A stretch of 64,000 nucleotides of DNA from the NCBI GenBank assembly GCA_947184155.2, contig CAMXCT020000442.1:77733-141732 (forward strand). Reading direction: 5' to 3'. Both the position numbers and the translations under genes were made by a program. The notes under the pieces were generated by a model. The model was not told the origin of the DNA. It saw only the letters and a list, made by a program, of their open reading frames with translations, and made no database searches. The number at the start of each line of letters is the position of its first letter. The stretch's first letter is position 1. Below, piece after piece: positions 2,844 to 39,885 of the stretch. The stretch is from Cladocopium goreaui. Taxonomy: Eukaryota > Sar > Dinophyceae > Suessiales > Symbiodiniaceae.

Positions 2844-4991
2844 TTATTGCATTGCTCCCCTGAAAGAATTATTGATCTGTGATTTTTCTTTAAGCCAGGA
2901 CACTGCAAGTTTACGATTGGCATTCTGTCGGAGAACCGAAGCTTCATCAAACAGGCAAAACATCCCCTTCTGGAGTACAGTTCTGAGTAGAGATGGGTCC
3001 ATCGCCTTGGTCAGTGCATCTGCCAGCATGATGGTCGTCGGGATCACTCTGAAAATGCAATGGTCTTGGCACTGTTCACGGATCAGGAGCACTTCAAGAG
3101 TAGTGCGGTACTCTTCACAATGGGGCATTGCGGTTCGGCTCACCAAGTCATAAAGGCTTCGGCAGTCTGTTGTGATTATACCAACTGGCAAACATGAATA
3201 GGCTAGTGAAGGTTCTTTCCATGGGAATTGGGCAATGGTGAACACACCCCAAAGAAGTCTTAACCATCCTAATCTATCTGCACTTCGAGACATGGAGTAG
3301 GCCTCAGCTGAAAGTGTCGAACGGACTACTCTGGCAATTTTCTTAGATGACCAGCTAAGAGGAGATATTGGGGCTTCACGATTTTCTTGGAGATCTACCG
3401 TCGTGGCACATATTAAGGTTCCCTGAAAAGAATTGAGTTGTTTTGGGCTAGCAAAGGACGCATCACCAAAGGAAACATGGGTAACTTGGGACATTGGGAT
3501 ACTTCTGAAACAAATTTGGACATCTGAGTGTTCCTGAGCTTCACGAAGGACCTTGTTGCACTGCATCAAAGTTTGAACCGTTGGATTCGACATATCAGTC
3601 TGGACCTCTCCAAGTTTGGCAGCCAAGTCAGGACGGGTGTGAGTTACAGCATATTGCAAACTGCCTACCAAGCCGCGTAATTTGGATTTTTCGGAATCAG
3701 TTACCGGACTGGATGCCTGTTCTCTGCGGGGTTTACCAATATCGATGGGCAAGATGCGATGAACATAATCAGCTTGAGAGGCACGGATACTGCTGTCTGG
3801 AAGCTGTTCAAGTTCAATACCGGTAAACACAAACTTTCGAGTTTTGAAACTGCCGAATGGAAGAACTTTGGAAAGTGCTTGAATCTGTTGGTGAAAATAT
3901 TCATCGCCACCTCCCACACCATCGTCCACATGGACGCCAAGAGCCCCGTGAAGTTTTCGCTGAGAGCCCTCACCAGATTCCAAAATGAATGCACAAGGTT
4001 CAAGAGGGTGCGTACGAAACTTCAATGTTTTCAGTTGTTTGGAAAGTTCTTTATAGAACAGCAGTGGAGCATCAACACGGCCGTAGGCATTTCCAACCAA
4101 AGCGCAAACTTGATCCTTACTTAACTGGAGTTTTCTACGCGATTCATCTGGTGGTTCCATGGCTAGTGGATTCTGTTCATCAGCTTTTCCACGGAGAAAG
4201 GCAGTTTTAATGTCCAGGCTGATGAGATCCCATTGGCATGAAGCAACCAATTGTAAAATAGTGTTCCGGCCTTCTTTGGTCAATGTCGGACTATCCCGGG
4301 CAACGGAAGTCAATTGGGGATCTTGGTAGCCTAGGACGACCAGTCGGGCCTTAGCTTTCTTGTGAGCAGGTGTTTGGTCATCTGCTTCAACATTCTTCCA
4401 GGTCAAAACCCAACGAGATTTCAAAATCTGATCCGGGTTCAAAGATTTGCGAAGAATGGGACGCAGAGCATTCGTGGAAATCCAACAAGACAGTTCATTG
4501 TCCTTTGCGATATCAAAAAGTTTTCGTTCACTGTCAGTGAGATATTTGACTTGAACTTCAGATCTCGCTCTTTGTCCGGCTGCTGCAACACATACCATTT
4601 CACTAGGATTGACCTCTTGGTTCCATGCCTGTACATCTTCAGATTTCATGGGTATTTCAAGTACGAAGCATTCTTCAGTGTTACAATCAAGGGGTGAGTC
4701 AATGTATGGCATGCCATCTTCAGCGAGACAAATGGTTTCCGTGGTTGTGGCATCTTGTGAAGGATAGAACGTATCAAACACATGGAGAGCCTCTTCCACA
4801 GGTTGTTCAGGATCAACATCTTCATGGTTTGTCAAATTTATCATCTGACTGAAGTAAAAGTCCATCTTCTTGGTGTTCAGTTTCAATCTCATCGGTGGCA
4901 GCTGTTGGAGTTTCTTCTCCTGAGTCAATGGTTGGTGGATGAGAAGCTTCGTGTTCTGGTTGTTCTGATTGGTTATCTGGTGGGGCATCAT
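2844..4991 (-). CDS. Element 1 reverse transcriptase / RNase H (3' part of split pol)
   Basis: A 715-codon frame offset +1 from the preceding ORF and overlapping it by 170 bp. The first 40 or so residues are probably not translated as such; homology to element 2 is clear from about residue 85. RT spans about residues 165-420, with the catalytic Asp in SLDIKTAF (D260) and the two Asp of HVDDG (354-357). His replaces the usual Tyr of YVDD, as in element 2. RNase H spans about 500-700, with acidic residues D510, E563, D609 and D658 in the contexts FGDASF, STLSAEA, TTDCRSL and LADALTK. It ends 14 bp before the 3' LTR. It most likely belonged to one gag-pol frame and was separated by an indel; programmed shifting is possible but is not conserved in element 2. 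Confidence 0.92.
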   Translation of the reverse strand: MMPHQITNQNNQNTKLLIHQPLTQEKKLQQLPPMRLKLNTKKMDFYFSQMINLTNHEDVDPEQPVEEALHVFDTFYPSQDATTTETICLAEDGMPYIDSPLDCNTEECFVLEIPMKSEDVQAWNQEVNPSEMVCVAAAGQRARSEVQVKYLTDSERKLFDIAKDNELSCWISTNALRPILRKSLNPDQILKSRWVLTWKNVEADDQTPAHKKAKARLVVLGYQDPQLTSVARDSPTLTKEGRNTILQLVASCQWDLISLDIKTAFLRGKADEQNPLAMEPPDESRRKLQLSKDQVCALVGNAYGRVDAPLLFYKELSKQLKTLKFRTHPLEPCAFILESGEGSQRKLHGALGVHVDDGVGGGDEYFHQQIQALSKVLPFGSFKTRKFVFTGIELEQLPDSSIRASQADYVHRILPIDIGKPRREQASSPVTDSEKSKLRGLVGSLQYAVTHTRPDLAAKLGEVQTDMSNPTVQTLMQCNKVLREAQEHSDVQICFRSIPMSQVTHVSFGDASFASPKQLNSFQGTLICATTVDLQENREAPISPLSWSSKKIARVVRSTLSAEAYSMSRSADRLGWLRLLWGVFTIAQFPWKEPSLAYSCLPVGIITTDCRSLYDLVSRTAMPHCEEYRTTLEVLLIREQCQDHCIFRVIPTTIMLADALTKAMDPSLLRTVLQKGMFCLFDEASVLRQNANRKLAVSWLKEKSQINNSFRGAMQ

Positions 4992-7900
4992 TAGTATCTA
5001 AAATACTCGGTGAATAGGGATCATCATCTGGGAGAACTTGATTATTCACAATTGGTGGTACGTTCTGGGGAATTGGCATTTGGTGCATGTTGTCACGAAT
5101 GGCACTCTCATAATTTGGGTTCTGATTCTGCAAAGCATTCCATTCTCTAAGCGACGCTGGACGAAGGCTCTCGGGTGCTCTTCGGATCAGCCGGTTGGCA
5201 TGTGAGAGCCACACAATGGAAGAACCCTCCTGAACAATGACACGGGCAGGTCCATGCCATCTGCCGGACTCACTTCTATTGGGCACGACCCGCTTGGTCC
5301 AATATAACACAAGCTGACCGGGTAAATATGGACCACGGGTGGGTCTTGACTGTCTCAAAGTCGCCCTACGCAAGGCATCAGCATTGTCAGCCAGGATAAA
5401 TGCCTGTCGAGCCTTAGTTCTTTTCTCCAGGAGACTTCGAAATCTGTCACAGTCAAGATCATCCCACAACGCAAGGCTATGGGCGGCAGTTGAATCGTCA
5501 CTGCTCAGCGAAGCTGGAAGGCGTGTCGCCTTGCCGAGAACGATCTGCTCTGGTGAGTATCCGCGATGTTTGGCCAGTGCATTCTTGGATTGGCAACACA
5601 ACATGAGCATTTCATCAAATTGAGACATGTTTTCTATTCTGTGATCGGTATCAAGTCTGGTGAGCATGTCTTTGAGAATGCCACCGTGGCGTTCAATGCG
5701 GCCACGCTGCCATGCTTCTGCTGTCATGTGTGTGTGAATGTTATTTGCTTGCATGAAATCTAGCCACTGATCTGCCCTAAACTCACCTGCAGGATCAAGG
5801 TATATACTTCGGGGATATCCGGCCCAAAATGACCACAGTTGTTGAAACGCTGGTATGGCGTGATCAAGGTTGCGACCATCAAGGCGACGAGCAAGATGGA
5901 ATCCAGAAGCTTCATCATAAATATGAAGAACATAACACTGAATGTTCCCTCTTCCTTTCCAGAAAAAACCATCAAGTCCTACCACATCATTAAACTCTCG
6001 AGGAGGATGGAGTTTGGCTGGTCGCTGATGTTGGGGTTTTTGGGACTCCACGCAAGCATCGCACACAAAATCCTGAGCAGCACGAACAATATGTTCCGGT
6101 GCACCTTGGGTCTTCAAATGAGCCGACAGCACAGATGGGTCTGGATGTCCTAAGTTTTTGTGTAGTTTGACTAGATGATTCTTCTCATCTGACTCAAGCG
6201 CACGGAAGCATGGACCATGCAATGGCGTGGGTGGTGGAGCCCAACCTTCACACATCACGGTGGAGCTCGGCGGACTCTGGGATTGCTCGACAGCTCGGAC
6301 TTGCGAGTTGGATTCATCGGCATGTTGGTCAATTGCCTTGACATCACCATCAGACTTAGCAGGTATTTTCCTACCAAAAATGGTGAGGGTCAACCGGCTG
6401 GGAAGATTTTTGGCAATTCTCTGAGCTCGGGTGAGGCTGTGCCATTCTCGCAGACCTAAATCATGAATTTCTCCAGTCACACGGTGAGCACATAAAGTGT
6501 AACACCAAGGAGCATCTTTGGATACTGGGGCGGACAATGGTATTTGATATCTATCAGTACCACGACAAATGAACATGCAGTCTACTTCAAAGTCTTCGGG
6601 TATCAGTTGTTGGACGAGTTCGCAAAGGTCATGGGAAACATCCACCTTTAGATTGCCAACTCGAGGAGCTAGTCGATAAGCCATTTTGAAGGCTTCATGC
6701 CACAGTGAATCAGAGGACAAAATTTGTCCTGGCACGCAAGAGCTTGCTGCATCAACTGCAGATGGATCAGGTGCATCCACGGCGGCTACACGTCTTTTCT
6801 TAAAAGCATCTGGGGCAAAACGAAGTCTTTTGGCTGGTGGTTCTTCATCGTCATTTGTAAAGGCTTCTTGGACGGCAGCCAAATGGGTTGCACATAAAGC
6901 TTGCGCTAGTGCCTGGACAAATCCTTGACAGTATGTGGCACAAAAGGAGGAAATTCGAACTGATTTTCCATCATGACGCATCGACCCAGCGATCTGGACA
7001 TGTTCATGGTTTTTGGGACAGTCTTTGTTCGTCAAAAATTGTCGAACTTCTGGAGAAGTTGTCCACAATTGGCTTCGCTTTTTGATGAACTTGGAGGTCT
7101 TTGGTAGTTTCAAACCGAATGCACACATGTCAAAACAGACCCGTTCGGTGCGTTTTGCAATCGGCTCAAACTCATTGGTATTGATCATGGAGGAACCTAA
7201 CGGCTGTTCAAGGTGAAAATGGTGATGACGTTTCTGTTGGTATTCACATAACTGAGCACACAATTGGATGTGAATCTTCTCGGCCTCTTGTTTGCTATGA
7301 ACATAGTCCCACAGGGCCAGGCTTTTCTGAGCATTCAGGTGATTCCATCCACTCCAAGGACCGCACTCAGGAGCAACAAAAATGTGGTCTGGCTCAATTT
7401 CATCAATCAGTTCCCAGAGGCGGCGACGGCCCAAAGGTGTGGCCAAATCACCATCTTTTCGAGAAAACCGATAAGCTTTGATCCCTAACTCTCGCAGGCA
7501 TTCGGTGAGAGGGCTCATCTCACCCGCATACACTTCAAGAACAACCAGGGTTTTCTTGGGATCTTTCATGGACGGTGCAGAAACAAAAACGTCATCGGCG
7601 ATTTGTTGAGCAGCATCTAAACTGGTTTTCAAAACATGTTGGTATTGTAATTCCTCTTTGTGGGGAGTAAAACGTGAACATTCAATCTTGCAGGATTCAA
7701 TCATGCCTGCAAGGTTGGCATCTAAGCTCATGCAAGGCGTCGGACACTCAGTGCATGGGCTCCCCGATCCTGAGCAGCACTCGCTTCCAGTTGGGCTCGG
7801 CAGAAATCTACAAAATCTTGTTGAGGAGCTGGAAGGGAATGATACCTGGACAGGCTCCACTCGAAGTACCCCATGTCCTCGCTCAGCACTTGATAGTAAG

Positions 7901-10608
7901 TGCGGCCTGGGTGCTTGCGACCCCATGAGATCTTCCTTTGACCCCATTCGGCCAATGTCAGCCTCAGGGGTGGCTGTTCCACCAGAGCATTGTTGTTCCC
8001 ATAGATCTCCACAGTCTCGACTGGTGGTGGTGACATGGGCACTTGAGGATGGTTCAAGGGAGCTGCTTGACTGGCTTTCCGAGCTTCCTTGGCAGGACTC
8101 CGAAGGACTTGGCTGTTCTTGGGACCCTTCAGGGAGGACACCATGGAAAAGTTGTCCAAATCGTCTTCGTCGCTCAGTGTTGCCGAAACTGGCATGGCTT
8201 GTACATCTTGGGTGCCAATCACGGGCTCCGGCAACGGCAACTGACGGAGTGGAAGGCTTCCACTTCCAGGAATCTGAGCATTCTGATTCTCGGCCAGCTG
8301 TTGCAGAAGGGCACGCTGGCGCATCATCTCTTGATTCATGGCACGCAGCTGATTGGTCAGTTGAGGCATTGTCTCCTCCTCGGCTGCATCGGGATTGCGA
8401 ATCTCGATCATGCTCATTGACACCTGGAGGACAAGAGTCAAAGTCCCCATGATGGTGTTGGCCGTCTCCTTCAGCATGTGAATTGCGGCTTCGCGATTCG
8501 ACATTCTGGCAAGACTCTCGGAACGATGGGGCGTCAGGCACTACACTGGAATCCAAAGGCGGGTTGGTGAAAACATTCTGATATTTCTGAATGGGCGCAA
8601 CGGTCAACTGTGCTCGAATAGTGTTTGTTTTCCTAGCGCTGGATGTGTTCTCCCCCACATGACTAGCACTCCCAACAAAGACTTCCGGACAGTTTTTGGA
8701 TTCCCCAAAATGAGATTGGCAAAAATCGGACATGTCAATGAGATACAAACCTGTCGCGTTGGTGCACAGCTCAATGGTCTTTTGCAGTCTTCGGAGCGTA
8801 CATGTGTCGGTGTTTGTGTCAAGGATCCCGCCTAACTGCTTGAAGGCTCTCTTGGAAAACAAAAATGGCGTTGTGCCTTCTACGACTTCCACACCCAGCC
8901 ACACCTTTTCACAATTTGGACCATAAAGTGGCAGCAAAACCCGGTACATGCTTGTCAGGGTTTGGTTGTTACCAAATCTGAATTTGATCTTGCTTTCACG
9001 CCGCTGAACTGTGGATCTAACGTCGGATGGCAAACGCTGCAAAAGACGGCTCAAAGGCTGGGTTCCTATGATACAACGGCTGGCACCAGTATCCAGGATG
9101 GCATGGGCAGGCTTTGCTTCACTGGAGTGCAAGGCAGACATCTCAGGGAGATATTCCATCTTCTCAGTCCTGGCAGGCTGCATGACATGTTTCGGATGCC
9201 GGAACTGTACACGGTTACACTCTGCTGGAGCAGAGGGCATGAAACACTGGTTATGCGAATGGCTCATGGGCTGTCGCTGGACGGCATTCAGTCTTTTCAT
9301 GGAATTACTTAACTTCGTCTTATTTTGGGGGTTGTTCCAGGAAAAGTGAACTGACATGAAACATTCCTGTACACAGAGTGAGACGTCAAAGAAATCATGG
9401 TGCACCTTCATCAAGTCAGCGTCAGTGAAGATCTCAGCATCATCCATCGTCCCACCGGCTTCACGCAGCTCAGACTCCACCAAGTTGGCCGCTGCCGCAG
9501 GAGGATGGGAAGTTGAGGGAGCCGTGGAAGAATCACGATCTTTCATAGGGCACTCGGCTTTCCAATGGCCAAGTTGATTGCAATTTCTGCATCTGGACTT
9601 CGCGATCTTGGCCAGCAGGTTCTGTCGACCTTGATGTTGGCCCTTGAAGGAACCCTTGTTGAACTTGGACTTGCCCTTGGATTTGCCAGTTCCATGGGCA
9701 GGCCAAAAACCACGGCCACGTCGCTTGTCTTGAAGGCGTTGGCGGGCTTCCAGGTAGGAGATCAGGGCCACCTGCATATCAGGGGTGTCCTGGACAAAGT
9801 CCTCAAACTCCGTTTCAAATGCCTGAACAGCTATTGCATCTGGATCATCCTGAGACACCAAAGCTTCCAGGAACTCGGGAGAGACTTCGTCATCGTCCGC
9901 TGGCATCGATTGCGAAACCATGCAACTGCCATCAGAAGCTTCCTCAGTCACCATCGTGTCGTAGACCTTGGTCTTCTGGGTGGCTTTGCCGGTTTGTACT
10001 TCTTGAAAGAACTTGGAACCGAGGAGCCTCAAAGCTTTCATCACTGGTGGATAGCTCAGCTGAGGATTTTCAAGGAGCACACGCTTCTTGTCATCGGCCG
10101 GCAATGTCGACTGCCGCAGCAAGACATATGCTTGGATCTCTTCCAAGGAAGTCTTTCGACTCAAAAGCTCTGAGAACACCGCTTCCATTCTGGCAATGAA
10201 GCTGTCATTGGACTCATCTTGCTTTTGGATGGTGCCGTACAATGCGCGCTCGAAGTACTCGAAACGCTCCTGAAAGTCCGTGGCACCCCAGCTGCCTCCA
10301 ATGGCATTCACAAGGGTCTTGATTCCATCCAAGCTCTTCACCTTGAGCTTCTGCGCATCCAGTTTGGAGATGGCTGCAAAGGCTGACCCCTCCACCAAAA
10401 GCGCAGCACGAGGTGCTAAAAGGTCTAAGTATTCAACCGGCCACATAGCCGCCAAGAACTCTAGCTTCTTCACGTACTCCTGGACATTGGTGACTCCTGG
10501 CTGGAATCGAGGAATTGCCGCCCAGGGCAATTGGGATGTGGAAATCACAGATCCATCCGCTGCCTCCGGAGGTACGGGAGGAAGTGCATCATCTCTCGGC
10601 ATCATCAT
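4822..10608 (-). CDS. Element 1 gag-protease-methyltransferase-like-integrase polyprotein (1928 aa, 5' part of split pol)
   Basis: Copia-type polyprotein. Residues 1-300: gag-like helical region. Residues 340-353: CCHC zinc knuckle (C-x2-C-x4-H-x4-C). Residues about 505-509: aspartic protease motif DTGA. Residues about 700-960: low-complexity Ser/Arg/Asp/His-rich linker that overlaps a second ORF in another frame. Residues about 1020-1230: domain with C5-DNA-methyltransferase-like motifs (YAG; PECGPWS; LEQPLGS; KKRSQ). Residues about 1320-1415: conserved domain of unknown function. Residues about 1483-1520: HHCC zinc finger. The integrase core follows with D1546, D1605 and E1639, a D-(33)-E spacing two residues shorter than the usual 35. 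The start is the ATG cluster 65 bp inside the 5' LTR boundary. The frame stops at 4822, before RT; the sister element is open through this point, so a 1-nt-type frameshift is inferred. RT and RNase H continue in the next entry. Confidence 0.92.
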   Translation of the reverse strand: MMMPRDDALPPVPPEAADGSVISTSQLPWAAIPRFQPGVTNVQEYVKKLEFLAAMWPVEYLDLLAPRAALLVEGSAFAAISKLDAQKLKVKSLDGIKTLVNAIGGSWGATDFQERFEYFERALYGTIQKQDESNDSFIARMEAVFSELLSRKTSLEEIQAYVLLRQSTLPADDKKRVLLENPQLSYPPVMKALRLLGSKFFQEVQTGKATQKTKVYDTMVTEEASDGSCMVSQSMPADDDEVSPEFLEALVSQDDPDAIAVQAFETEFEDFVQDTPDMQVALISYLEARQRLQDKRRGRGFWPAHGTGKSKGKSKFNKGSFKGQHQGRQNLLAKIAKSRCRNCNQLGHWKAECPMKDRDSSTAPSTSHPPAAAANLVESELREAGGTMDDAEIFTDADLMKVHHDFFDVSLCVQECFMSVHFSWNNPQNKTKLSNSMKRLNAVQRQPMSHSHNQCFMPSAPAECNRVQFRHPKHVMQPARTEKMEYLPEMSALHSSEAKPAHAILDTGASRCIIGTQPLSRLLQRLPSDVRSTVQRRESKIKFRFGNNQTLTSMYRVLLPLYGPNCEKVWLGVEVVEGTTPFLFSKRAFKQLGGILDTNTDTCTLRRLQKTIELCTNATGLYLIDMSDFCQSHFGESKNCPEVFVGSASHVGENTSSARKTNTIRAQLTVAPIQKYQNVFTNPPLDSSVVPDAPSFRESCQNVESRSRNSHAEGDGQHHHGDFDSCPPGVNEHDRDSQSRCSRGGDNASTDQSAACHESRDDAPACPSATAGRESECSDSWKWKPSTPSVAVAGARDWHPRCTSHASFGNTERRRRFGQLFHGVLPEGSQEQPSPSESCQGSSESQSSSSLEPSSSAHVTTTSRDCGDLWEQQCSGGTATPEADIGRMGSKEDLMGSQAPRPHLLSSAERGHGVLRVEPVQVSFPSSSSTRFCRFLPSPTGSECCSGSGSPCTECPTPCMSLDANLAGMIESCKIECSRFTPHKEELQYQHVLKTSLDAAQQIADDVFVSAPSMKDPKKTLVVLEVYAGEMSPLTECLRELGIKAYRFSRKDGDLATPLGRRRLWELIDEIEPDHIFVAPECGPWSGWNHLNAQKSLALWDYVHSKQEAEKIHIQLCAQLCEYQQKRHHHFHLEQPLGSSMINTNEFEPIAKRTERVCFDMCAFGLKLPKTSKFIKKRSQLWTTSPEVRQFLTNKDCPKNHEHVQIAGSMRHDGKSVRISSFCATYCQGFVQALAQALCATHLAAVQEAFTNDDEEPPAKRLRFAPDAFKKRRVAAVDAPDPSAVDAASSCVPGQILSSDSLWHEAFKMAYRLAPRVGNLKVDVSHDLCELVQQLIPEDFEVDCMFICRGTDRYQIPLSAPVSKDAPWCYTLCAHRVTGEIHDLGLREWHSLTRAQRIAKNLPSRLTLTIFGRKIPAKSDGDVKAIDQHADESNSQVRAVEQSQSPPSSTVMCEGWAPPPTPLHGPCFRALESDEKNHLVKLHKNLGHPDPSVLSAHLKTQGAPEHIVRAAQDFVCDACVESQKPQHQRPAKLHPPREFNDVVGLDGFFWKGRGNIQCYVLHIYDEASGFHLARRLDGRNLDHAIPAFQQLWSFWAGYPRSIYLDPAGEFRADQWLDFMQANNIHTHMTAEAWQRGRIERHGGILKDMLTRLDTDHRIENMSQFDEMLMLCCQSKNALAKHRGYSPEQIVLGKATRLPASLSSDDSTAAHSLALWDDLDCDRFRSLLEKRTKARQAFILADNADALRRATLRQSRPTRGPYLPGQLVLYWTKRVVPNRSESGRWHGPARVIVQEGSSIVWLSHANRLIRRAPESLRPASLREWNALQNQNPNYESAIRDNMHQMPIPQNVPPIVNNQVLPDDDPYSPSILDTNDAPPDNQSEQPEHEASHPPTIDSGEETPTAATDEIETEHQEDGLLLQSDDKFDKP
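7728..8504 (-). CDS. Element 1 overlapping ORF in the +1 frame of gag-pol (258 aa)
   Basis: A second open frame lies entirely inside the gag-pol ORF, over main-frame residues about 702-960. Element 2 has a counterpart at 36905-37642 in the same relative frame and the same place. The two proteins align. Residues 9-33 form a hydrophobic helix (MLK..A..I...LTL.LQ). Residues 47-75 are Gln/Met-rich and look like a coiled coil. A Ser/Pro linker with an acidic patch (SDEDDLDNF) follows. The C-terminus at about 181-240 has the pattern LTL-EWG, IS-GRKH-G, GYF-WSL-RY, QQDFV-F. The C-terminal pattern recalls the small domain found at the C-terminus of exonuclease X-like proteins (FGK-KG...YL-W); this is a resemblance, not a search result. 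Function is unknown. How it is translated (internal start, splicing or shifting) cannot be seen. Confidence 0.7.
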   Translation of the reverse strand: MSNREAAIHMLKETANTIMGTLTLVLQVSMSMIEIRNPDAAEEETMPQLTNQLRAMNQEMMRQRALLQQLAENQNAQIPGSGSLPLRQLPLPEPVIGTQDVQAMPVSATLSDEDDLDNFSMVSSLKGPKNSQVLRSPAKEARKASQAAPLNHPQVPMSPPPVETVEIYGNNNALVEQPPLRLTLAEWGQRKISWGRKHPGRTYYQVLSEDMGYFEWSLSRYHSLPAPQQDFVDFCRAQLEASAAQDRGAHALSVRRLA

Positions 10609-10661
10609 GACCCTGGATCACCAGCTCTTTCGCTGCACTGTCAGCAGCGGAGCACCAGTTG

Positions 10662-22976: not shown

Positions 22977-24760
22977 TCAAGTTGTGTTCAACGAGGGCAA
23001 CTGAAAAAGGAAATCGCATAGGAGCATTCTGCACTGGCGGCTATTCAGTTGGTGTTTCCGGACGGACACCTGCCATGCTAAGATAGTTTCTGACTTTTTG
23101 TCATGTGAGGGCCAACCCAGTCGCTGTTGGAGTATGCACTCAGGAATTGCAGGACGAGTAGCTGCATTTGGTACATGGGGGCATTCCCAAAACTCATGAT
23201 GTAAAGAAGAAATGACATGACAATGTGGACACCGGCGTTGACCATCATCATCACTTCGATGGAAAGAAGCATTAGAAACATATCCTCCGGTAATGATCGC
23301 AGAAACCTGCGATGTAATTTGAGATGCTTTCCTAGCATTGGCACATCTGGTTTCGTCATAAGGAAAGTGTTGGCATAGGACTGAGTCACGGCGATTCGAC
23401 GATTGCCAACATGTCCACGAGTGTGTACGAAAACCCTCACGCAATCGGTGCAAGACCGGATCAGTGTCAAGGGAAAAATAAGTAGATCTGGGATTTAAAG
23501 AAGTCACAGCGTTTGTCACGGAGCGTCTCCAGGTCCAGGTGGCTGTACGTAACCTCGACATGCGTTCCATTTGTTTGGAAATGGAGCTGGAAATACTGTT
23601 TTTACACCAGGAGGGTATCTGGTAGTATTTGACATATCGAAGGACAACACAAAGCAAGTCTGCAACACTCGAAAACCTATGTGGAGACCGTGGCCTCTCA
23701 TATGTCCCGCAAGTGGATACATGAACGATGGGGTTCATTAAGAGCTTTACGTGTGGCACTTTGAAATTTGTCAAAGATGTTCTTAGGGGGAACATGCATC
23801 AACCATCCAAATTGGATTTTTGACAGGGGACCAGTGGCCATGACTAATCTTTTGTGAGTAACAGTAATTGGCAAGCACGAAGCACGTTTCACAAGTGACA
23901 GGGACGCATCGATACGATCCTGCTCTTTCTTGTGCAATTTGCGTTGCTGGGACGGCTGAAAGAAATGACCAAGAATGCAAATTTGATCAATGATATTGTC
24001 CTCGGGCACACCAGCCTCTTTGAGCTCGACCTTTTTGTCTGGCATGGAAAAATTGAGATTTGTCACTGTTTTCTACAAGGCCAAGGAGGCGGGTCCATTC
24101 GTCCCATTTAGAAAGAACAACCATGGCATCTTCAACAGATCGGGATGACCAGGACCTGTCATCAACGAAATTGCGTTGTGTCACTGAAGGATAACTCCTG
24201 GCAATTTCCCACGAGGCCGGGCACAGAGTAGCAACCATGGGCATCAAGGACCATGGATCACCCTGTGGAAGGCTACTACTAACATGTTCCGGCTCGGGCA
24301 AGACAAAATTTTGAAATGAGATAAATCTTTGTTGGTTGCTCCATTGGTCAAACAGCATGGTGACCATGAAAAATGACAATTTTAATCTTTTCAACACGTG
24401 AAGGGCAAGGTCGGGGTGGCAATGGTCAAAAGCGAACGAGATATCTAAAGAAACTAGATACTCATCACTGGCGGCAGCAGTGATTAGAGGGATGAGAGCA
24501 TGGTAGATTTCCATGCCCTTTTTACCAGCAATGGCTGTGTCAGGCCACCAAGTATTAATCCAACTTTGACATTCTTGACATTGCAATCTTGAGGAGGCCT
24601 AAATACGGTACCACAGTGAGAAGATGGCCAGTGGTCGCAATCCATTAATATCGCGGGCACCATCTTCACGTAAACCTTTTTGACCCTTGGGAATGTGAAC
24701 TTGTGAAGCACACCTCCAAGAGTTGGGCAATTTTCTTGCCATCTCACAAAAATGACAAGC
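22977..24760 (-). pseudogene. Decayed, 5'-truncated LINE reverse transcriptase
   Basis: Reading 5' to 3' on the minus strand: a segment with VHIPKGQKG and RPLAIFSLWYRI (RT fingers), an in-frame stop at 24599-24601, then RT palm motifs SLDISFAFD, SLPQGDPWSLMPM and FVDDRSW (24586-23987). A frameshift leads to 24066-23698 and another to 23795-22977. The last frame carries a Cys-His cluster, RRCPHCH...HHEFWECPH, typical of the C-terminus of many non-LTR retrotransposons. At least one stop and two frameshifts make it non-functional. The endonuclease part is absent. Its 5' end abuts a fragment of the ~50 bp minisatellite (24755-24830). No poly-A tail is visible at the 3' end. Confidence 0.88.
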
Positions 24761-31878: not shown

Positions 31879-31890
31879 CTCCCAAAACTT
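31879..31890 (-). promoter_or_regulatory. Element 2 polypurine tract
   Basis: The minus strand reads AAGTTTTGGGAG directly before the 3' LTR. This compares with TTTTAGGGGAG in element 1. The gag-pol stop codon TAA lies just upstream of it. Confidence 0.75.
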
Positions 31891-34800
31891 TATTTTTGAT
31901 GTGATTCCTTCAACCATTGTAGCGCTTGTTTCCTGTGTGCATTTGTTTGAAGACTAGCTGCCTCATCAAACAGTTGAAAGGCCCCTTGTTCTAGTACCGC
32001 ACGAAGAAGCGATGAGTCCATGTTCTTAGTCAAAGGATCGGCCAGTTGCAGTGAAGTTGGTATCCACCTGAAGAAACAATGTTCCATACACCTTTCCTTG
32101 ATAAGAAGGACTTCCAGCGTTGTGCGATATTCTTCGCACGATGGCATCGCTCTGCGGCTCACAAGATCATACAGGGATTTGCAGTCCGTTACGACCACGG
32201 CAGCATGCATTTGACGAAATGCCTCCGGTGGACTTCTCCACTGGAATTCAGGAATGGTCAGTGTACCCCAAAGCAAGCGGCACCATCCCATCTTATCTAC
32301 GCTACGTGACATGGAAAAAGCTTCAGCTGACAGTGTTGATCTGACAACTCTGGAGATTTTCTTGGATGACCAGGACAGTGGACTAATGGGGGCCCTCTTA
32401 TTATCTTGAAGATCTGGTGTAGTGGCAAACACTAATGTTCCTTGAAAGGATGCTAACTGTTTCGGACTGGCAAAAGACGCGTCTCCGAACACAACATGTG
32501 TGAGTTTCTGAGGAGAAATGGATCGAAAACATAATCCCACGTCACATGTTTTCTGGGCCTCACGCAGAACTTTGTTGGCCTCCATCAGGGTCGAGACAGT
32601 CGGTTTCGACAACTGAACTTGGATTTCCCCAAGCTTTGCAGCCACATCTGGTCTGGTGTTCGTGGTGGCGTACTGCAAACTGCCAATGAGGCCTCTCAAG
32701 TTGGACATCTCTTTTTCGGAAATAGGTTCCTGTACCAGGTGTCTTCGATGTTTACCAATCTCTAGATAAGGGATCGCTTTGATGTATTCTGCTTGATTTG
32801 CTCTGATACTGAAGTCTGGCAATTGCTCAAGTTGGATTCCTGTAAACACGAATTTTCTTTGCTTATATGACCCGAAAGGTAATTTTTGACGAAGCAATTC
32901 TAAACGTGAATGAAACCAGGAATCTCCACCGCAAATGCCGTCATCCACATGAGTACCTAGAGCCCCATGCAAAATTCTTTGTCCATTCTTCCATGACTCC
33001 AGATAGTACACGCAAGGTTCAAGTGGATGCATTTTGAAGCCCAAGGTTTGCAGTTGACTGGATAGCTCTTTGTAAAATAGAAGAGGTGCATCTACTCTAC
33101 CGTACGCATTTCCAATCAGAGCACAGACCTGATCATCAGGTAATTGCATGCGTTCTCGTAATTCTTTTGGGGGTTCCATTGCTAATGGGTTTTCACTATC
33201 AGCTTTTCCACGTAAGAAAGCTGTCTTGATGTCGAAGGATGAAAGAACCCATTGTTGCGATGCAATTAGCTGAAGAATGGTATGCCTGCCCTCCCTGGTT
33301 AAGGTTGGTGCATCACGATTGACCTCAGTCAGCCTGGGATCCTGATAACCTAGAACTACCAATCTGGCTTTGGCTTTTCTGGCATTGGTCTGTTCATCAT
33401 CATTACATACATTTTTCCATGTCAGGACCCATCTTGACTTGAGAATTTGATCCGGATTCAAATGCTTTCGAAGTATCGGTTTCAAGGCACTTGTTTGAAG
33501 CCAACATGATAACTCAGCTTCCTTGGCAGTGTCGAAAAGCCGTCTTTCGGCTGCGGTCAGATCTTTGATCTGGACTTCGGCTCGGGCCCTTTTTCCGGCA
33601 GACGCTACCTGAGCAAGTTCTTCCGGATGGGAAGACTGAGACCACTGTAATAAATCCTGGCGAGACATTGGAACTTCTAGCATGAAACACTGGTGGTCAT
33701 GATGACACATAGGCTCATCTAAAAGGGGCAAACCATCTTCGGCCAGGCAAATATCGGAGGACTCAGTGCCCGATTGGAACACATTCCATTCGTGAATCGG
33801 ATCCTCTTGTAGGAAGTCACTGATCTCATAGCACGACAGAACATTCTCTGTCTCGGCTGCATCAACTGGCTCTTCTGTGGGGGTATCTAAATCTATGGCA
33901 TTTTCTGATTCAAAGTTGGGGAAGTTATCAAAGGGAGGATTATCAGTTATGCTTTGATTGGGACTTATGACGGGTGTGGTTACGTTGGACGTTATGGGCT
34001 CTGGAAACAGTTCACTTTCTGGTTGGATACTGGTTTGACTGCTGATGGGAACTTCAGGAACATCTATTGGAGTACCAGGCGTGTACGTCTCATCTTGATT
34101 TGAACCTTCATGGATGCTAGGCCTAAATTCCAGGGTACCTTTTGGTCCATCCTGGGAATTCTGGAGACTCTGGACACGGTGGTTTAGAGATTCGGATGCA
34201 TTTTGCCATTCTCTCAGTGATGCAGGACGCAAGCTCTCGGGTGAACAGCGCAGCAAACGGTCACCATGCGCAACCCAGATTGTGGTGGAACCATCTTGAC
34301 ATACCACCCTTGCAGGCCCATGCCAGCGTCCAGTTTCTCGTCGCCCAGTTGTATTTCTCTTTTTCCAATAGAGTACTAATTGACCTATCTCATAGGTTCC
34401 GGGATGCGGTTGTGACTTGCGGAGTAAAGCTCTGCGGATCGCCGAGTCATTGTCGGCAAGCACAAACATGCGTCTTGCTCTGGAACGGATGTCAAGGTTT
34501 CTCCGAAAAACTTCGCTTTCAAGGTCAGATCCATCAGCTAGGCTATGGGCTGAGGCATGTTCATCAGATGTTAGGGAAGCAGGCACCTTAGTGGCTTTTC
34601 CCAACACAATTTGCTCTGGTGAAAAACCTTGATGACGAGCGAGTGCATTCTTGGCTTGGAAACAGGACTGAAGGACTTGGTCAAGTTCTTGAACGTCTTC
34701 AATTTTCTTTTCTTGATCAAAACGATCCAACATGTTCTTGATGATTTGACCATGTCTTTCAATGCGTCCCTTCTGCCATGCTTCGGTGGACAAACGTGGC

Positions 34801-37800
34801 TCTATGTTCTGTTGTTGCAAGAAATCAAGCCAATGTCCAGCACGGAACTCCCCGGCGGGGTCAGAGTAAATACCGGTCGGTTGTCCGGCCCAAGACATCC
34901 ACATTTCCTTGAAGACGGGCACCACGTGTTCAAGATGACGATTCTGCAACCTACGTCCTAGGTGGAATAAGGATGCTTCATCTATACAGTGGAATACCAT
35001 GACTTGAAATCCACCCCGGCCTGTCCAAAAAAAACCATCAATACCCAACAACTCGTTAAATTCTTTTGGATCATGAAGCTTGGCTGGTCTCTGATGACGG
35101 AATTTTGAAGTCTCCACACATGCATCGCAAATGTACTCCTTGGCGGCTTCAATCACATGTTTATGGGCTCCGGCTTCTTTGAGGTGATGTGCTAGTCTTA
35201 TGGGATCTGGGTGACCCAAATTCTTGTGCAATTTCACTAGGTCTTGTTTTTCCTGGGCATTCAGCAACCTGAACTTTGGCCCGTGAAGTGGTACCGGAGG
35301 TGGTGCCCAACCTTCACATGGAACATTGCTAGTACGCTCGTGAACTGCAGCTGGCAACCCTTGATTGCCGGACACTCGAATTGCTGTGGGCGGTTCTGAG
35401 GGAGCCATCGTCTTCTCAGCATCATCGGCTACTTCTTTTGCGGGTGCAGATTCAATCTCAGGAGAGCATCCAAACATGGTTATGATAAGCTTGCATGGGA
35501 TACACTTTCGGATGCGTTGAGCTCTGGTGCTCTCATGCCAGTTTTCTAAACCAAGGTCATGAATGGCTGATGTCTCACGATGCAAACATACTGTATACCG
35601 CAAAGGAAACTGATGGGACGCTGGGGCTTGAAGTGGCACCTGAAAACGTTCCGTACCCCTGCACACAAACATGTCTGTGATCTTCATGGTGGTTTCCAAA
35701 ATGGTCTGGGCGTGACTCCATGCTGTTGAATCTGCAGGACATCGGGTGTTGCCTACGCGTGGTGCGAAGGTCTTAGCCTCCTCAAACACAGCTTGCCAAC
35801 GTTCGGACGATGAACATGCTGGTGGAGGAACTTCTGGCCTAGGAACATTGGGATTCGGATCCCTCTGTGGGTGGTCGGAAGCATCATATTCTCTCACTGG
35901 CAAGGGGTTTGGCTCACTGTCGGCAACCGTTGGATTCGGATCAGACAAGCTGGATTTTCTTTTCTTGAAACCACTACCATTTGTTTTGAATCGTTTCTTG
36001 GGTCTCTCTTCTTCTTCATCATCAAAAACCATGGCATGTTCATCAGATCCTATCATGGTGTGATGAAGCTTGCAGAGTTTTCCGGCCACCATCTTGGCAA
36101 AACCCTGGCAATATGTCGCACAGAAACTGGTCAGTCTCTGGCTCTGGCCGTTGACACTGATACTACCCTCAATACGTTGATGAGAGTGTTGATTTGCACA
36201 CAGGAGACCATTGAGTTCATGAAACAACTGTCGAGACGTGGTGAGAACTTGGCTTCTTTTCTTGAGGAATCGATTGGTCTTGGGTATGCGCAAACCAAAA
36301 CGGCACATGTCAAAACGGGCTGCCATAGTATGCTGACGAATGAATGCGAAAGCATCCATCTGAATCAAGCTGGAACCTGCAGGCTGCTCGAGGTGGAAAT
36401 GGCGTTCCAAACGGACCTGATACTCACAAATTCTTCGACATAAGTGGACATGTGGCATTTGCATTTCCTGCTTCTGGGAAATCAAATCAAACATGACTGA
36501 ACTCTTACCCATGTTGAGACGATTCCAACCACTCCAGGGTCCGCATTCGGGTGCCATCCATATGTGCTCTGGCTGCAGCCTTTCAATCAGACCCCACAAT
36601 TTTTGTCGACCAGCAAATGTGGCCAGATCCCCATCTTCTTTGGTAAAACGCATTGCCTTGTAACCAAGTCTTTGAACTGCTTCAGTAAGTGGACTATTGT
36701 TGTTGGCATAGATTTCCAAAAGGAAAATTCTGGAATTGTTACTGTTGGATTGAACATGGTTGATCAGGGAATCTTCCAAGTTGTTGATAGATTGTTCGAG
36801 TTGATGAGAAATTGGACTGTTGGTCTTATCTGTGACCTCGGTCTGAAGATCCTTTCGGGCGGCCAGAACTTCCGCATGGAACTGCTGAGCCTCAGGTGAT
36901 GACATCATAGATCGCCCTTCGACATCCATAGTTGTCCGAACCGGACAAAGTCCTGTTGCTCCGGCATCAGGCTCGAATATCGAGCTAGGCTCCAGTGAAA
37001 GTATCCTGGGTCCTGGCGCATCACTGCCTCGAAGGACTTCCCCTTGTGCTTCCGTCCAAATGAAATCAGATTGCTTCCCCACTCTTCCAGTGTCAGATTT
37101 CCTGGAAGCGGCATCGTAGGCACTGGTGGAGCACCTCGATTGGTGGGCTCTGTCACAGGTGTCATCTGGACATTCTGTTGGATCATCACTTCTTCGATCT
37201 CTTCGATCTCTTCCCAGGTGGCCGCATGAGATATGACCGAAGGAGCTTTTCCTCGGCGCTGGGTCACTGCGGTCTGAGGCAGAGACATCAACATTGTTGT
37301 ACTTCCGGCGGAAGCACCTGAGCTTGTTCCCATTGTTGGTCCACGAATCTTGCGCTCGGCTGGCTTCTTTTGGACCATGATCTCGTCTTTCAGATTTTCC
37401 AATGCCGTCTTTTGCATGTTGATCTGGTTCATCATTTCTTGCAATTGGCCATGAATCTGAGGATCGGTCTCGATCTCTGTTTCGGTGATCACTTCTTGTC
37501 TTTCCAACTGATGCACAAAGATCTGGAGGAGCAAGGTCAACAGGTGGATGATGGCCTCTGCAATCGTCTTGAGCATGCTTACCACAGGCGGCATGGGAGT
37601 CGCAGGTCTCTGAAGCACGATTCGAATTGGGCTGCGAGTCACTTGAGCGAAAACTTCTGTTTCGCTGGAATCTGAGGCCAGGTTTGTTTGATTTTTGAGA
37701 CTGTAAAACCCCTTCAGTCCTACCCATTATGCTATTTTTATGGTTTTCATAACCTAATCTCTCCCCATTAGGCATTTCCGGAACTGATTTGACAGGAATG

Positions 37801-39788
37801 TCACTGGCGGTCTCTTGGAACATGGCAGCTTCATTTCGTACGCAAATGTCAATCATGTTGATGAGATACAAACCGGTTGGACTGGTCATGAGCTTGATGG
37901 GACCGTCTTGCACTTTTCGCATGAAGCATTGATCTGTTCGAGAATCCAACGAGCCATGTAGCATCTTGAAAGCTTTCTTGGAAAACAGAAAAGGAGTGGC
38001 TCCTGGAACCACTTCCACAGACAGCCAAAGTTTCTTCTGTTCTTTGTGTTTCAATGGCATCTGGATGGCATACATGCTGGTTAATGACTGGTTGTTTCCA
38101 AAACGGAACTTCACCTGGCTGTCTTGCTTGCGAAATCTGGCACTGATCTCTGCTGGAAGAGATTGTTGCAGTCTCTTCAGGGTGCGGTCTCCTATGATAC
38201 AACGACTGGCTCCAGTATCTAAAATCGCATGGGTGCAAAAGGTTTCTAAGCTACTGTACACCTGCTCGGATGCAAAAGTCTCAGAAAAACGGCAGGACCG
38301 GTTGGTCACAGGAGCTTGGTCTGATGAAGGTTCATCAGGGCATTTCCTAGGCGGCATTTGAAATCTCTTGGACTCTACCGGATCACATGCACATTGGGAC
38401 TTTCCGGAAAACCTTTGAACCCTCTTGGAATTGAAACTGGACATGCGCTGGCTCAAATTGTGAATACCACGATTCTTACACTCATGAGTCAACATGAAAC
38501 ATTCCGCATGACATGACTGAAACTGCAAACTGGATTCTACGGAAGGCATCACATATGCTTCATTGTCATCCTCTTCGGAAAACACCTCATCGACATCTCC
38601 AACCGTGGCGAAAACTTCCTGAGGACGTTCATCCATGACCACATTGGCAGATGCTGTCGAAGGTGGACCACCGGATTTTTCGGCACCACTGGCTAATGGG
38701 CATTCCGCTTTCCAGTGCCCGAGGGCACCGCAGCGGCGGCAGTGGCTGCGAGCAATCTTTTGAAGCAATGCATCACGGTCTTTGGATCTTTTCCCAAAAC
38801 CTTTACCTTTTCCTTTTCCATATTTATTCTTTCCCTTTACAGGCCAGAATCCCCTTGATTTCTTCTTTTCAATCAACTTTGATCGTGCCTCAATGTACGT
38901 GGTCAAGGCCTCGAACATCTCTGGGGTGTCCTGCAAGAACTCCTCGAACTCGCCTTCGAAGGTGGCCACGGCCAAGGCGTCCGCATCATCCTGGGCCACT
39001 GAGGCATCAATGAACTCTTGATCAAGCTCGGGTTCTGCATCCTCAGAACTAGCATGGGTGAGATACGCTCTCTCATAGGTTCCAGAGTCATGTGAGGAAG
39101 CTGCATCGTGAGATTCAGAAGTGTCCAGAAAATTTGCATCATACACTTTGGTTCGCTGACTGACTCTTCCGGTCTGAAACTCATTGAAAAAGCGGCTGCC
39201 CAGCAAACGAAAGGATTTCACCACTGGCTTGTATTGAAGTTCACCCTCATGTTCAAGGAGAATTCTCTTTTTATCTTCTGCACTGAGAGTTGACTGCCGA
39301 AGCAGGACATATGCTTGCACCTCTTCCAATGTCGTGTTTCGTGACAAAAGTTCAGTGAAGTTGGCTTCCATACGGGCCAGGAAAGAATCATGGCTTTCAT
39401 CATTCCTCTGAGTTGTTCCATACAGAGACTTCTCAAAGTATTCATAACGTTCTTCCAATTCAGTTGAACCCCACGACCCTCCAATGGCTTCTACCAAAGC
39501 GGCCACACCATCTGTTGTTTTCACCTTCAACTTGGCCGGGGGAATCTTTGCAATCTTCTTGAACGCCGTTCCTTCTATGAGAAGCGCTGCGCGAGGAGCT
39601 AACTGATCCAAGTGTTCCACAGGCCACAGCGACGCTAAAAACTGAAGCTTCTGGGAATACTCTTGGACATTTGTCACACCAGGAACAAATTTGGGAATCT
39701 GACTCCAAGGTAATTGAACTGGGCTCGGTGTCGGCTCATCGTCCGGCACAGGCGGAAGGCTACCATCACCACTAGCTGTTGGAGGCAT
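31890..39788 (-). CDS. Element 2 gag-pol polyprotein (2632 aa, intact)
   Basis: Single frame from an ATG 97 bp inside the 5' LTR to TAA 12 bp before the 3' LTR. Residues 1-310: gag. 350-363: CCHC knuckle (C-x2-C-x4-H-x4-C). 523-527: protease DTGA. About 710-960: Ser/Arg/Asp-rich linker overlapped by a second ORF. About 1020-1240: C5-methyltransferase-like domain (YAN in place of element 1's YAG; PECGPWS 1080-1086; LEQPAGSS; KKRSQ). About 1340-1440: conserved unknown domain. HHCC finger H1521, H1525, C1554, C1557. Integrase acidic residues D1584, D1643, E1677 (D-33-E). RT from about 2100, with D2186 in SFDIKTAF and HVDD at 2280-2283. RNase H D2436, E2489, D2535, D2584. The RNase H end and spacing match element 1. 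No stop or shift is seen, so all enzymes could be made. Confidence 0.97.
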   Translation of the reverse strand: MPPTASGDGSLPPVPDDEPTPSPVQLPWSQIPKFVPGVTNVQEYSQKLQFLASLWPVEHLDQLAPRAALLIEGTAFKKIAKIPPAKLKVKTTDGVAALVEAIGGSWGSTELEERYEYFEKSLYGTTQRNDESHDSFLARMEANFTELLSRNTTLEEVQAYVLLRQSTLSAEDKKRILLEHEGELQYKPVVKSFRLLGSRFFNEFQTGRVSQRTKVYDANFLDTSESHDAASSHDSGTYERAYLTHASSEDAEPELDQEFIDASVAQDDADALAVATFEGEFEEFLQDTPEMFEALTTYIEARSKLIEKKKSRGFWPVKGKNKYGKGKGKGFGKRSKDRDALLQKIARSHCRRCGALGHWKAECPLASGAEKSGGPPSTASANVVMDERPQEVFATVGDVDEVFSEEDDNEAYVMPSVESSLQFQSCHAECFMLTHECKNRGIHNLSQRMSSFNSKRVQRFSGKSQCACDPVESKRFQMPPRKCPDEPSSDQAPVTNRSCRFSETFASEQVYSSLETFCTHAILDTGASRCIIGDRTLKRLQQSLPAEISARFRKQDSQVKFRFGNNQSLTSMYAIQMPLKHKEQKKLWLSVEVVPGATPFLFSKKAFKMLHGSLDSRTDQCFMRKVQDGPIKLMTSPTGLYLINMIDICVRNEAAMFQETASDIPVKSVPEMPNGERLGYENHKNSIMGRTEGVLQSQKSNKPGLRFQRNRSFRSSDSQPNSNRASETCDSHAACGKHAQDDCRGHHPPVDLAPPDLCASVGKTRSDHRNRDRDRSSDSWPIARNDEPDQHAKDGIGKSERRDHGPKEASRAQDSWTNNGNKLRCFRRKYNNVDVSASDRSDPAPRKSSFGHISCGHLGRDRRDRRSDDPTECPDDTCDRAHQSRCSTSAYDAASRKSDTGRVGKQSDFIWTEAQGEVLRGSDAPGPRILSLEPSSIFEPDAGATGLCPVRTTMDVEGRSMMSSPEAQQFHAEVLAARKDLQTEVTDKTNSPISHQLEQSINNLEDSLINHVQSNSNNSRIFLLEIYANNNSPLTEAVQRLGYKAMRFTKEDGDLATFAGRQKLWGLIERLQPEHIWMAPECGPWSGWNRLNMGKSSVMFDLISQKQEMQMPHVHLCRRICEYQVRLERHFHLEQPAGSSLIQMDAFAFIRQHTMAARFDMCRFGLRIPKTNRFLKKRSQVLTTSRQLFHELNGLLCANQHSHQRIEGSISVNGQSQRLTSFCATYCQGFAKMVAGKLCKLHHTMIGSDEHAMVFDDEEEERPKKRFKTNGSGFKKRKSSLSDPNPTVADSEPNPLPVREYDASDHPQRDPNPNVPRPEVPPPACSSSERWQAVFEEAKTFAPRVGNTRCPADSTAWSHAQTILETTMKITDMFVCRGTERFQVPLQAPASHQFPLRYTVCLHRETSAIHDLGLENWHESTRAQRIRKCIPCKLIITMFGCSPEIESAPAKEVADDAEKTMAPSEPPTAIRVSGNQGLPAAVHERTSNVPCEGWAPPPVPLHGPKFRLLNAQEKQDLVKLHKNLGHPDPIRLAHHLKEAGAHKHVIEAAKEYICDACVETSKFRHQRPAKLHDPKEFNELLGIDGFFWTGRGGFQVMVFHCIDEASLFHLGRRLQNRHLEHVVPVFKEMWMSWAGQPTGIYSDPAGEFRAGHWLDFLQQQNIEPRLSTEAWQKGRIERHGQIIKNMLDRFDQEKKIEDVQELDQVLQSCFQAKNALARHQGFSPEQIVLGKATKVPASLTSDEHASAHSLADGSDLESEVFRRNLDIRSRARRMFVLADNDSAIRRALLRKSQPHPGTYEIGQLVLYWKKRNTTGRRETGRWHGPARVVCQDGSTTIWVAHGDRLLRCSPESLRPASLREWQNASESLNHRVQSLQNSQDGPKGTLEFRPSIHEGSNQDETYTPGTPIDVPEVPISSQTSIQPESELFPEPITSNVTTPVISPNQSITDNPPFDNFPNFESENAIDLDTPTEEPVDAAETENVLSCYEISDFLQEDPIHEWNVFQSGTESSDICLAEDGLPLLDEPMCHHDHQCFMLEVPMSRQDLLQWSQSSHPEELAQVASAGKRARAEVQIKDLTAAERRLFDTAKEAELSCWLQTSALKPILRKHLNPDQILKSRWVLTWKNVCNDDEQTNARKAKARLVVLGYQDPRLTEVNRDAPTLTREGRHTILQLIASQQWVLSSFDIKTAFLRGKADSENPLAMEPPKELRERMQLPDDQVCALIGNAYGRVDAPLLFYKELSSQLQTLGFKMHPLEPCVYYLESWKNGQRILHGALGTHVDDGICGGDSWFHSRLELLRQKLPFGSYKQRKFVFTGIQLEQLPDFSIRANQAEYIKAIPYLEIGKHRRHLVQEPISEKEMSNLRGLIGSLQYATTNTRPDVAAKLGEIQVQLSKPTVSTLMEANKVLREAQKTCDVGLCFRSISPQKLTHVVFGDASFASPKQLASFQGTLVFATTPDLQDNKRAPISPLSWSSKKISRVVRSTLSAEAFSMSRSVDKMGWCRLLWGTLTIPEFQWRSPPEAFRQMHAAVVVTDCKSLYDLVSRRAMPSCEEYRTTLEVLLIKERCMEHCFFRWIPTSLQLADPLTKNMDSSLLRAVLEQGAFQLFDEAASLQTNAHRKQALQWLKESHQK
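36905..37642 (-). CDS. Element 2 overlapping ORF in the +1 frame of gag-pol (245 aa)
   Basis: Counterpart of the 7728-8504 ORF. It lies over main-frame residues about 716-961 and ends at nearly the same main-frame residue as in element 1 (960). N-terminal hydrophobic helix (about 22-44, with SMLKTIAEAIIHLLTLLLQ), Gln/Met-rich coiled coil (about 62-90), acidic patch (WEEIEEIEEVM) and C-terminal domain at 183-236 with LTLEEWG, ISFGRKHKGKSF and DPGYFHWSLARY. The C-terminal domain is the best-conserved part. It resembles the small exonuclease-X-type C-terminal fold by pattern only. Expression route unknown; the same DNA is open and in use in the gag-pol frame. Confidence 0.72.
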   Translation of the reverse strand: MTRSPIRIVLQRPATPMPPVVSMLKTIAEAIIHLLTLLLQIFVHQLERQEVITETEIETDPQIHGQLQEMMNQINMQKTALENLKDEIMVQKKPAERKIRGPTMGTSSGASAGSTTMLMSLPQTAVTQRRGKAPSVISHAATWEEIEEIEEVMIQQNVQMTPVTEPTNRGAPPVPTMPLPGNLTLEEWGSNLISFGRKHKGKSFEAVMRQDPGYFHWSLARYSSLMPEQQDFVRFGQLWMSKGDL

Positions 39789-39873
39789 GGTGCCACAGTC
39801 AAAACTGAAAGGATTTCCGACCTCCCTGGATCGTCCACTCTTACAGCTAAAGCAAAGTAGCTGGAGCTCGAGG

Positions 39874-39885
39874 CTCCGCTACCAG
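39874..39885 (-). promoter_or_regulatory. Element 2 primer-binding site with LTR-paired hairpin
   Basis: The minus strand reads CTGGTAGCGGAG starting at the base next to the 5' LTR, the same initiator-Met-tRNA-type site as element 1. The U5 end of the LTR carries the exact 12-base complement CTCCGCTACCAG (39900-39911 in plus coordinates reads CTGGTAGCGGAG). This leaves a 14-base loop at 39886-39899. CTCCGCTACCA is itself what the 3' end of the matching tRNA would look like. Confidence 0.75.

Follow-up and report, generated by a model that had tools for sequence, protein, structure and literature searches.

A probable wholly nested accessory gene in copia retrotransposons

Overprinted accessory genes are a hallmark of viruses, and the locus described here raises the question of whether plain long terminal repeat (LTR) retrotransposons evolve them too. 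It lies in a stretch of 64,000 nucleotides (nt) of the dinoflagellate Cladocopium goreaui (contig CAMXCT020000442.1, positions 77,733 to 141,732 of the forward strand), called the window below, which holds two copia elements on the minus strand, designated element 1 (E1) and element 2 (E2). Within gag-pol of both, behind the protease, an open reading frame (ORF) at +1 to the gag-pol frame was confirmed, as an earlier note on this DNA had claimed. The comparison of copies makes it very probable that a large clade of dinoflagellate copia elements possesses, in this ORF, a genuine overprinted accessory gene; a protein of about 200-260 residues is encoded at +1 inside gag-pol, between the protease and a C5-methyltransferase-like domain. 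A wholly nested gene kept across a large copia clade would give the question above a positive answer. The two ORFs are:

7728..8504, minus strand: overlapping accessory ORF of E1, ATG to stop, 258 codons, +1 to gag-pol
36905..37594, minus strand: overlapping accessory ORF of E2, conserved ATG to stop, 229 codons, +1 to gag-pol

The +1 frame is open over 7728-8540 in E1 (270 codons), with the first ATG at 8504, and over 36905-37726 in E2 (273 codons). The extent proposed earlier for E1 (7728-8504, 258 codons) thus stands, whereas the start proposed for E2, at 37642, is a GTG, the first ATG, conserved in relatives, being at 37594. The two alternative-frame proteins align with each other, as had been stated (BLASTP E = 5e-21).

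The first alternative to be weighed is a chance ORF, in which low-complexity or biased gag-pol codons keep the +1 frame open and related elements share it. Its length is within reach of chance: when gag-pol codons were redrawn synonymously the interval remained open with P = 0.026 (E1) and 0.025 (E2), and codon-shuffled gag-pol could yield +1 ORFs of up to 298 (E1) or 281 (E2) codons, which makes length unconvincing. In E1, an antisense open stretch over the same place is even longer (7610-8452, 280 codons). ORF length alone is weak evidence; homology, selection and recurrence go beyond chance.

Selection on the two frames

All DNA tests were performed in one genome (1.17 gigabases, 6202 contigs), whose copies are designated here by L numbers. 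It had been proposed that refutation would come from substitutions following gag-pol; a frame-specific comparison of copies revealed that they follow the alternative frame instead. In most of the 144 pairs compared, changes peak at hidden codon position 3, which corresponds to gag-pol position 1, and are fewer at positions 1 and 2, hidden position 2 being gag-pol position 3, which is mostly silent in gag-pol. For example, E2 and L027 differ at hidden positions 1, 2 and 3 by 22, 13 and 66 changes inside the ORF and by 14, 26 and 15 outside it.

Rates were then calculated for 16 disjoint sister pairs, among which the near-identical pair L052/L053 was retained. The changes silent in the hidden frame only numbered 636.5 and those silent in gag-pol only 133.5, with 190 altering both proteins and 27 silent in both. 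Per opportunity, transitions occurred at 0.1135 (hidden-silent only), 0.0235 (gag-pol-silent only), 0.0212 (both altered) and 0.1381 (both silent), as compared with 0.1121 for synonymous and 0.0416 for non-synonymous changes in the flanking gag-pol; the corresponding transversion values were 0.0394, 0.0078, 0.0061 and 0.0806, with flanking values of 0.0466 synonymous and 0.0169 non-synonymous. Transitions that are silent in the hidden frame and alter gag-pol therefore proceed at the flanking synonymous rate, the reverse class being about fivefold rarer. Relative to changes altering both proteins, the hidden-silent class (SN/NN) was 6.6 times as frequent (95% interval, 5.7-7.8) and the gag-pol-silent class (NS/NN) 1.34 times (1.06-1.64). 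The hidden-silent-only class was the largest in 15 of the 16 pairs, the exception being L052/L053, and accessory identity exceeded gag-pol identity over the same stretch in all 16 (64 vs 35% for E2 and L030). Because the rates differ in this way between silent classes, gag-pol residues are nearly free over the interval while the hidden protein is constrained.

Two controls were available. A +1 ORF of 195-196 codons between integrase and reverse transcriptase (RT) in another clade, compared in five of six such elements, showed changes mostly at gag-pol position 3, with small counts (0-8 per position, seven comparisons); on these counts it behaves as chance ORFs should, and it is a point in favour of the chance explanation. 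The spacer from protease to methyltransferase in L016-L018, which is without the ORF, displayed no clear inversion (10-17 changes per pair), positions 1 and 3 being tied at 4 in one of the three pairs. The chance explanation is confronted with the inverted codon-position pattern, with the rarity of changes altering the alternative protein, with homology down to about 25% identity and with a conserved start; it is hardly tenable, and we regard it as refuted by the substitution rates per silent class together with the openness of gag-pol described next.

Gag-pol is stop-free across the accessory ORF in 55 of 61 copies, where 0.0 would be expected open: redrawing the synonymous codons of the hidden protein produced 8.6 to 13.4 gag-pol stops per copy, and none remained open. 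The six interrupted copies are L029, L046, L063, L079, L080 and L086, and one of the 62 copies (L028) was dropped from this test, its hidden ORF being broken. This result bears on the possibility that the alternative frame is the sole real coding frame and that gag-pol skips the interval by splicing. Such an arrangement would agree with the near freedom of the gag-pol residues, and the database proteins P0029 and P0036 do combine pieces of both frames; an intron, however, would not keep gag-pol free of the stops expected, which makes splicing very unlikely. At least these two database proteins mix both frames and would require correction. As an observation on the same interval, L046 and L087 (G000:C4379) and L080 (G000:C4206) include two copies, 99% identical, with small deletions that place most of the hidden frame in register with a long ORF (2510 aa in one copy).

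Nor is the alternative frame often interrupted, which had been named as another possible refutation. Stops occur in 27 of 148 genome matches, the query for which began 44 residues before the ATG (in L027, L029 and L031, for example, the stop precedes the ATG), and the frame is open for at least 200 codons in 20 of 20 further elements. The proposal of an overprinted gene under selection is supported by the constraint on amino acids in the alternative frame and by both frames being kept open. Selection preserves the accessory amino acids and leaves the overlapping gag-pol residues almost free, yet keeps that frame without stops, so that gag-pol serves there chiefly as a linker through which translation has to continue.

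Spread of the accessory gene

Database proteins matching the accessory protein numbered 41 at E<=1e-3, their best identity to accessory proteins read in this genome ranging from 28 to 100%; P0027, a database protein named Cladocopium goreaui, is identical to the L033 copy over 213 residues. The E2 accessory protein has at least 148 matches in its own genome. With more than 100 detectable copies in one genome and an overprinted frame bearing nearly all the amino-acid constraint, the system would be a clean test bed.

To avoid picking elements by the hidden ORF, the genome was searched with the gag-pol domain just downstream of it. This domain was scored at 144 places (36-100% identity), 84 of which, including 65 of the 65 best, had an accessory match directly upstream (gap of -21 to 401 nt); the count used 137 of the 148 accessory matches, those omitted being mainly second pieces of one place. 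From the other 60 places 20 were cut, and all 20 had a +1 ORF of 200-290 codons at the same spot. Each of these ORFs matches a profile derived from 48 copies outside this set (E from 1.8e-11 to 1.1e-5), whereas the best other frame in those places reached only E=0.65. Judged by eye, most of the 20 divergent copies have the ExoX-like motif closer to the N-terminus and end in a coiled-coil-like stretch, an order opposite to that in E1 and E2.

A wider sample comprised 16 elements picked by RT alone, 14 of which (L011-L024) carry the neighbouring domain (tblastn, about 22-29% identity). Three of these distant elements (L021, L022 and L023) carry, at the corresponding place, a +1 ORF that the profile matches. 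In the clade around the window elements the accessory gene is thus almost universal, but most of the distant elements read lack it at this position.

Two further observations concern individual copies. The hidden-ORF profile also matches (E=5.5e-11) an ORF of 112 codons at the 5' end of the turned L020 locus (L020:9564-9899, minus strand), about 1.9 kb upstream of gag and truncated where the locus ends; it is either the accessory ORF of that element in another position or a neighbouring gene. The E2 hidden ORF has matches shown as 100% identical at three other places (G000:C3984, C6037 and C1368), and E2 seems to have moved recently.

Start of translation and route of expression

The accessory protein begins at a comparable ATG across clades (MPPxVxxLK, MSNREAAIxxLK, MLTQRDAMxLIK, MPTRQEVL and others), with A at -3 in 41 of 52 copies. 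An automatic start was obtained for 52 of 62 sequences and three more were restored by eye, giving the 55 copies used below, one of which (L084) has just 40 nt upstream. In the two window elements the start is preceded by:

8505..8564, minus strand: 60-nt leader of E1 before the accessory start, no ATG
37595..37654, minus strand: 60-nt ATG-free leader of E2, with TCAAG about 50 nt before the start

Between -60 and -1, the 55 copies contain 0 ATG in any frame, against 35 expected from base shuffling; further upstream, from -100 to -60, there are 52 ATGs in 2160 positions. In the 20 held-out copies, two ATGs fell in this interval, where the rate further upstream in these copies predicts 32, the exceptions being L104 (ATG at 58 nt) and L088 (usual start followed by stops). 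In addition, a same-frame stop lies within 12 codons before the ATG in 15 of the 55 copies and within four codons in five, and only 0-5 alternative-frame codons are open before the ATG in 7 of the 20 held-out copies. These counts show statistically that the accessory protein has a conserved start codon of its own, which stands in good context and follows a leader of about 60 nt without ATG. The conserved ATG, the ATG-free leader and the nearby upstream stops together favour translation beginning at this ATG, on an RNA with its 5' end about 60 nt upstream.

The same data bear on programmed +1 frameshifting after the protease, by which a short Gag-protease-Alt product would set the Gag to Gag-Pol ratio. 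Ty1, a copia-type element, uses +1 frameshifting for that purpose. In every copy in which gag-pol is uninterrupted over the ORF, the ORF lies at +1, as it does in the 20 further elements, and in E2 gag and pol otherwise share one ORF, which leaves a Gag excess unexplained. Frameshifting, however, is at odds with the stops so close before the ATG in 15 of 55 and 7 of 20 copies, and it needs neither a conserved ATG nor A at -3 nor an ATG-free leader; it is improbable as the general route.

How the separate start would be reached is a further question. AG dinucleotides are enriched 45-49 and 60-64 nt before the ATG, and 48 representatives yielded 14 cases of TCAAG at positions -50 to -59, against 0.4 expected. 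The accessory protein would be separately initiated at its own ATG on a subgenomic mRNA with its 5' end about 50-70 nt upstream, most likely produced by spliced-leader trans-splicing onto an AG inside gag-pol, a route towards which we lean at just short of an even chance. All dinoflagellate mRNAs are said to receive the spliced leader (PMC6050394), and we infer that, as dinoflagellate mRNAs mature with it, an AG acceptor would be the cheapest route. That general statement would also argue against making the same protein through internal ribosome entry or an internal promoter; the ATG-free leader, nevertheless, would be accounted for by any 5' end or entry site some 60 nt upstream and the AG acceptor is putative, so this alternative keeps a substantial, if smaller, share of the probability. 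Existing RNA-seq could now be used to ask if spliced-leader trans-splicing provides the retroelements of dinoflagellates with subgenomic mRNAs.

The predicted accessory protein and its ExoX-like module

The predicted structure of the E2 protein consists of a long N-terminal helix, a second helix of coiled-coil type, a low-confidence middle and a compact helical C-terminal module. The modules are:

36908..37108, minus strand: C-terminal helical module of E2, PF20600-like, predicted local distance difference test (pLDDT) score about 92-95 over most of it
7731..7961, minus strand: C-terminal ExoX-like module of E1 (LTLAEWG...GRKHPG...GYFEWSL), by alignment with E2

The earlier hint at ExoX-C-like families proved right. 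PF20600 (ExoX-like_C) matches E2 with E=3.3e-5 and 23.6 bits, under the cut-off of 26.5, and L023 with E=9.2e-5; it is over the cut-off in the homologous ORF P0031 (27.4 bits) and in homologous ORFs found at C592 and C148 by the genome search. The E1 ORF gave no PF20600 match up to E=1. An identity as the exodeoxyribonuclease X enzyme was considered and rejected, as Pfam searches up to E=1 detected no N-terminal exonuclease domain: no exonuclease-domain family matched either ORF or any of ten scanned proteins.

In the genome, 49 PF20600 matches, all over the cut-off, were found among the 150 of 393 candidates that were scored, and 24 of the 49 lie in open frames of 823-3059 aa. In the two of these 24 that were read (L108 and L109), the module belongs to the reading frame of a long polyprotein, flanked by a CCHC knuckle and a protease-like motif (DSGCNQTCH, DEGCNSTCH). 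In L108 the module scores 31.3 bits, over the cut-off, and the knuckle is under its own. Downstream in the same frame class, L108 has an RT matching E2 (E=2e-29) and L109 an integrase region matching E2 (E=3e-37). As judged by these matches, the ExoX-like module recurs in copia-like elements, in frame in L108 and L109 and out of frame here.

Since the same module stands in frame between zinc knuckle and protease elsewhere, a role with Gag and genomic RNA can be suggested. The accessory protein might oligomerise by its coiled coil and act with the Gag/genomic RNA particle, a proposal we make with considerable reserve. Coding the module out of frame would let its dose differ from that of Gag-Pol. 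Taken as a whole, it is conceivable, although we would not call it the likelier case, that the clade expresses a wholly nested gene by spliced-leader trans-splicing onto an acceptor within gag-pol, as a retrovirus-like subgenomic mRNA made by the mRNA-maturation machinery of the host, and that the module has moved between polyprotein domain and overprinted gene.

Several points weigh against the overprinted gene or parts of its interpretation. The copies are related and come from one genome, the 16 pairs being disjoint but their clades not fully independent. Eleven of the 14 distant elements (L011-L020 and L024) have no +1 ORF of at least 150 codons at the corresponding place. The N-terminal helix of E1 and E2 is missing from the divergent 20-copy set, where the domain order also differs. 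The longest alternative-frame open stretch before the ATG reaches 112 codons, so frameshifting would be possible in some copies, and a gag-pol serine motif confounds the TCAAG signal, although the codon that follows TCA is not constant but encodes Ser, Lys or Arg. Finally, the structure model has no clear known fold, and the function is a guess.

The carrier elements

The organization of the two elements around the accessory ORF is as follows:

4822..10617, minus strand: E1 gag-protease-methyltransferase-like-integrase ORF, 1931 aa, contains the accessory ORF
2844..4997, minus strand: E1 RT ORF, 717 aa, overlaps the end of the E1 gag-to-integrase ORF
6808..7560, minus strand: E1 gag-pol domain immediately following the accessory ORF, with 50% identity to the E2 C5-methyltransferase-like domain
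31890..39878, minus strand: E2 gag-pol, one ORF of 2662 aa, contains the accessory ORF
36054..36851, minus strand: E2 C5-methyltransferase-like domain, predicted fold

Gag-pol of E1 is split, its RT sitting in the separate overlapping ORF. The RVT_2 reverse transcriptase family (PF07727) scores 59.2 and 46.5 bits in the two elements (cut-off 31.6), and Pfam gives for E2 the order zf-CCHC (over its cut-off), rve-like, RVT_2. The rve match is under the cut-off in both elements (17.4 and 18.6 vs 32.6 bits), and a protease match was obtained in E2 only, a weak one (E=0.24). The RVT_2 matches and the order gag/CCHC, protease, integrase and RT both identify the carriers as Ty1/copia-type elements.

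Comparison with known systems

The nearest analogue found, at the level of gene organization, is CERV of Cer1, a Ty3/gypsy LTR element of C. elegans, which has a potential leucine zipper and is required for nuclear export of the genomic RNA (PMC10309623). CERV is likewise an LTR-element accessory protein partly off the polyprotein frame with its own processed mRNA, but it is a spliced five-exon product of which exon 4 alone is in the other frame (PMC10309623), whereas the window gene, compared by description and not by sequence, is one uninterrupted ORF nested wholly inside copia gag-pol.

Other retroelements share single features. The additional ORFs (aORFs) of plant LTR retrotransposons are conserved extra proteins described as of unknown role, in a review whose main text does not contain the word "overlap" (PMC7264820). 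The ORF3s of bdelloid rotifer LTR elements are captured accessory modules common to retroelement types, one being related to DEDDy exonucleases; they differ in being separate ORFs, one with an exonuclease domain, and the main text of that survey also lacks the word "overlap" (PMC5408684). The window gene, by contrast, has an ExoX-like C-terminal module only, with no nuclease match in Pfam. The Ty1 restriction factor p22 is also an extra product of such an element, made from an alternative Ty1 transcript (PMC4599808), the window gene differing from it in being in a different frame and behind the protease. Symbiodinium retrotransposons bearing a DNA methyltransferase (DNMT) are likewise dinoflagellate retroelements with an added C5-methyltransferase domain; the carriers reported are LINE and DIRS elements, Copia being stated to be without any DNMT domain (PMC5890265). 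Unlike in that statement, the window copia gag-pol appears from its predicted fold to carry a diverged C5-methyltransferase-like domain beside the hidden ORF. No overlapping gene in dinoflagellate copia elements was found in the literature searched.

Other observations

In L016, L017 and L018 a separate 238-codon ORF with a QWLVKTYG-like end lies behind pol (L016:31-744, minus strand); Pfam returned nothing for it in L016, and the hidden-ORF profile does not match it. Within the window, two long ORFs in different frames occupy the same stretch at 58825-59597 (minus strand), and each encodes a repeated peptide of its own (FECEVCGEAWEAALEHVAQG and DLNARFAGKHGKLPSNMLPK). From about 46470 on there is a large tandem array with a 10-base register, which fills the 20 largest repeat families listed. 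Lastly, a 203-codon ORF at 23987-24598 (minus strand) resembles a fragment of another reverse transcriptase, as its LDISFAFD...FVDD motif would indicate.
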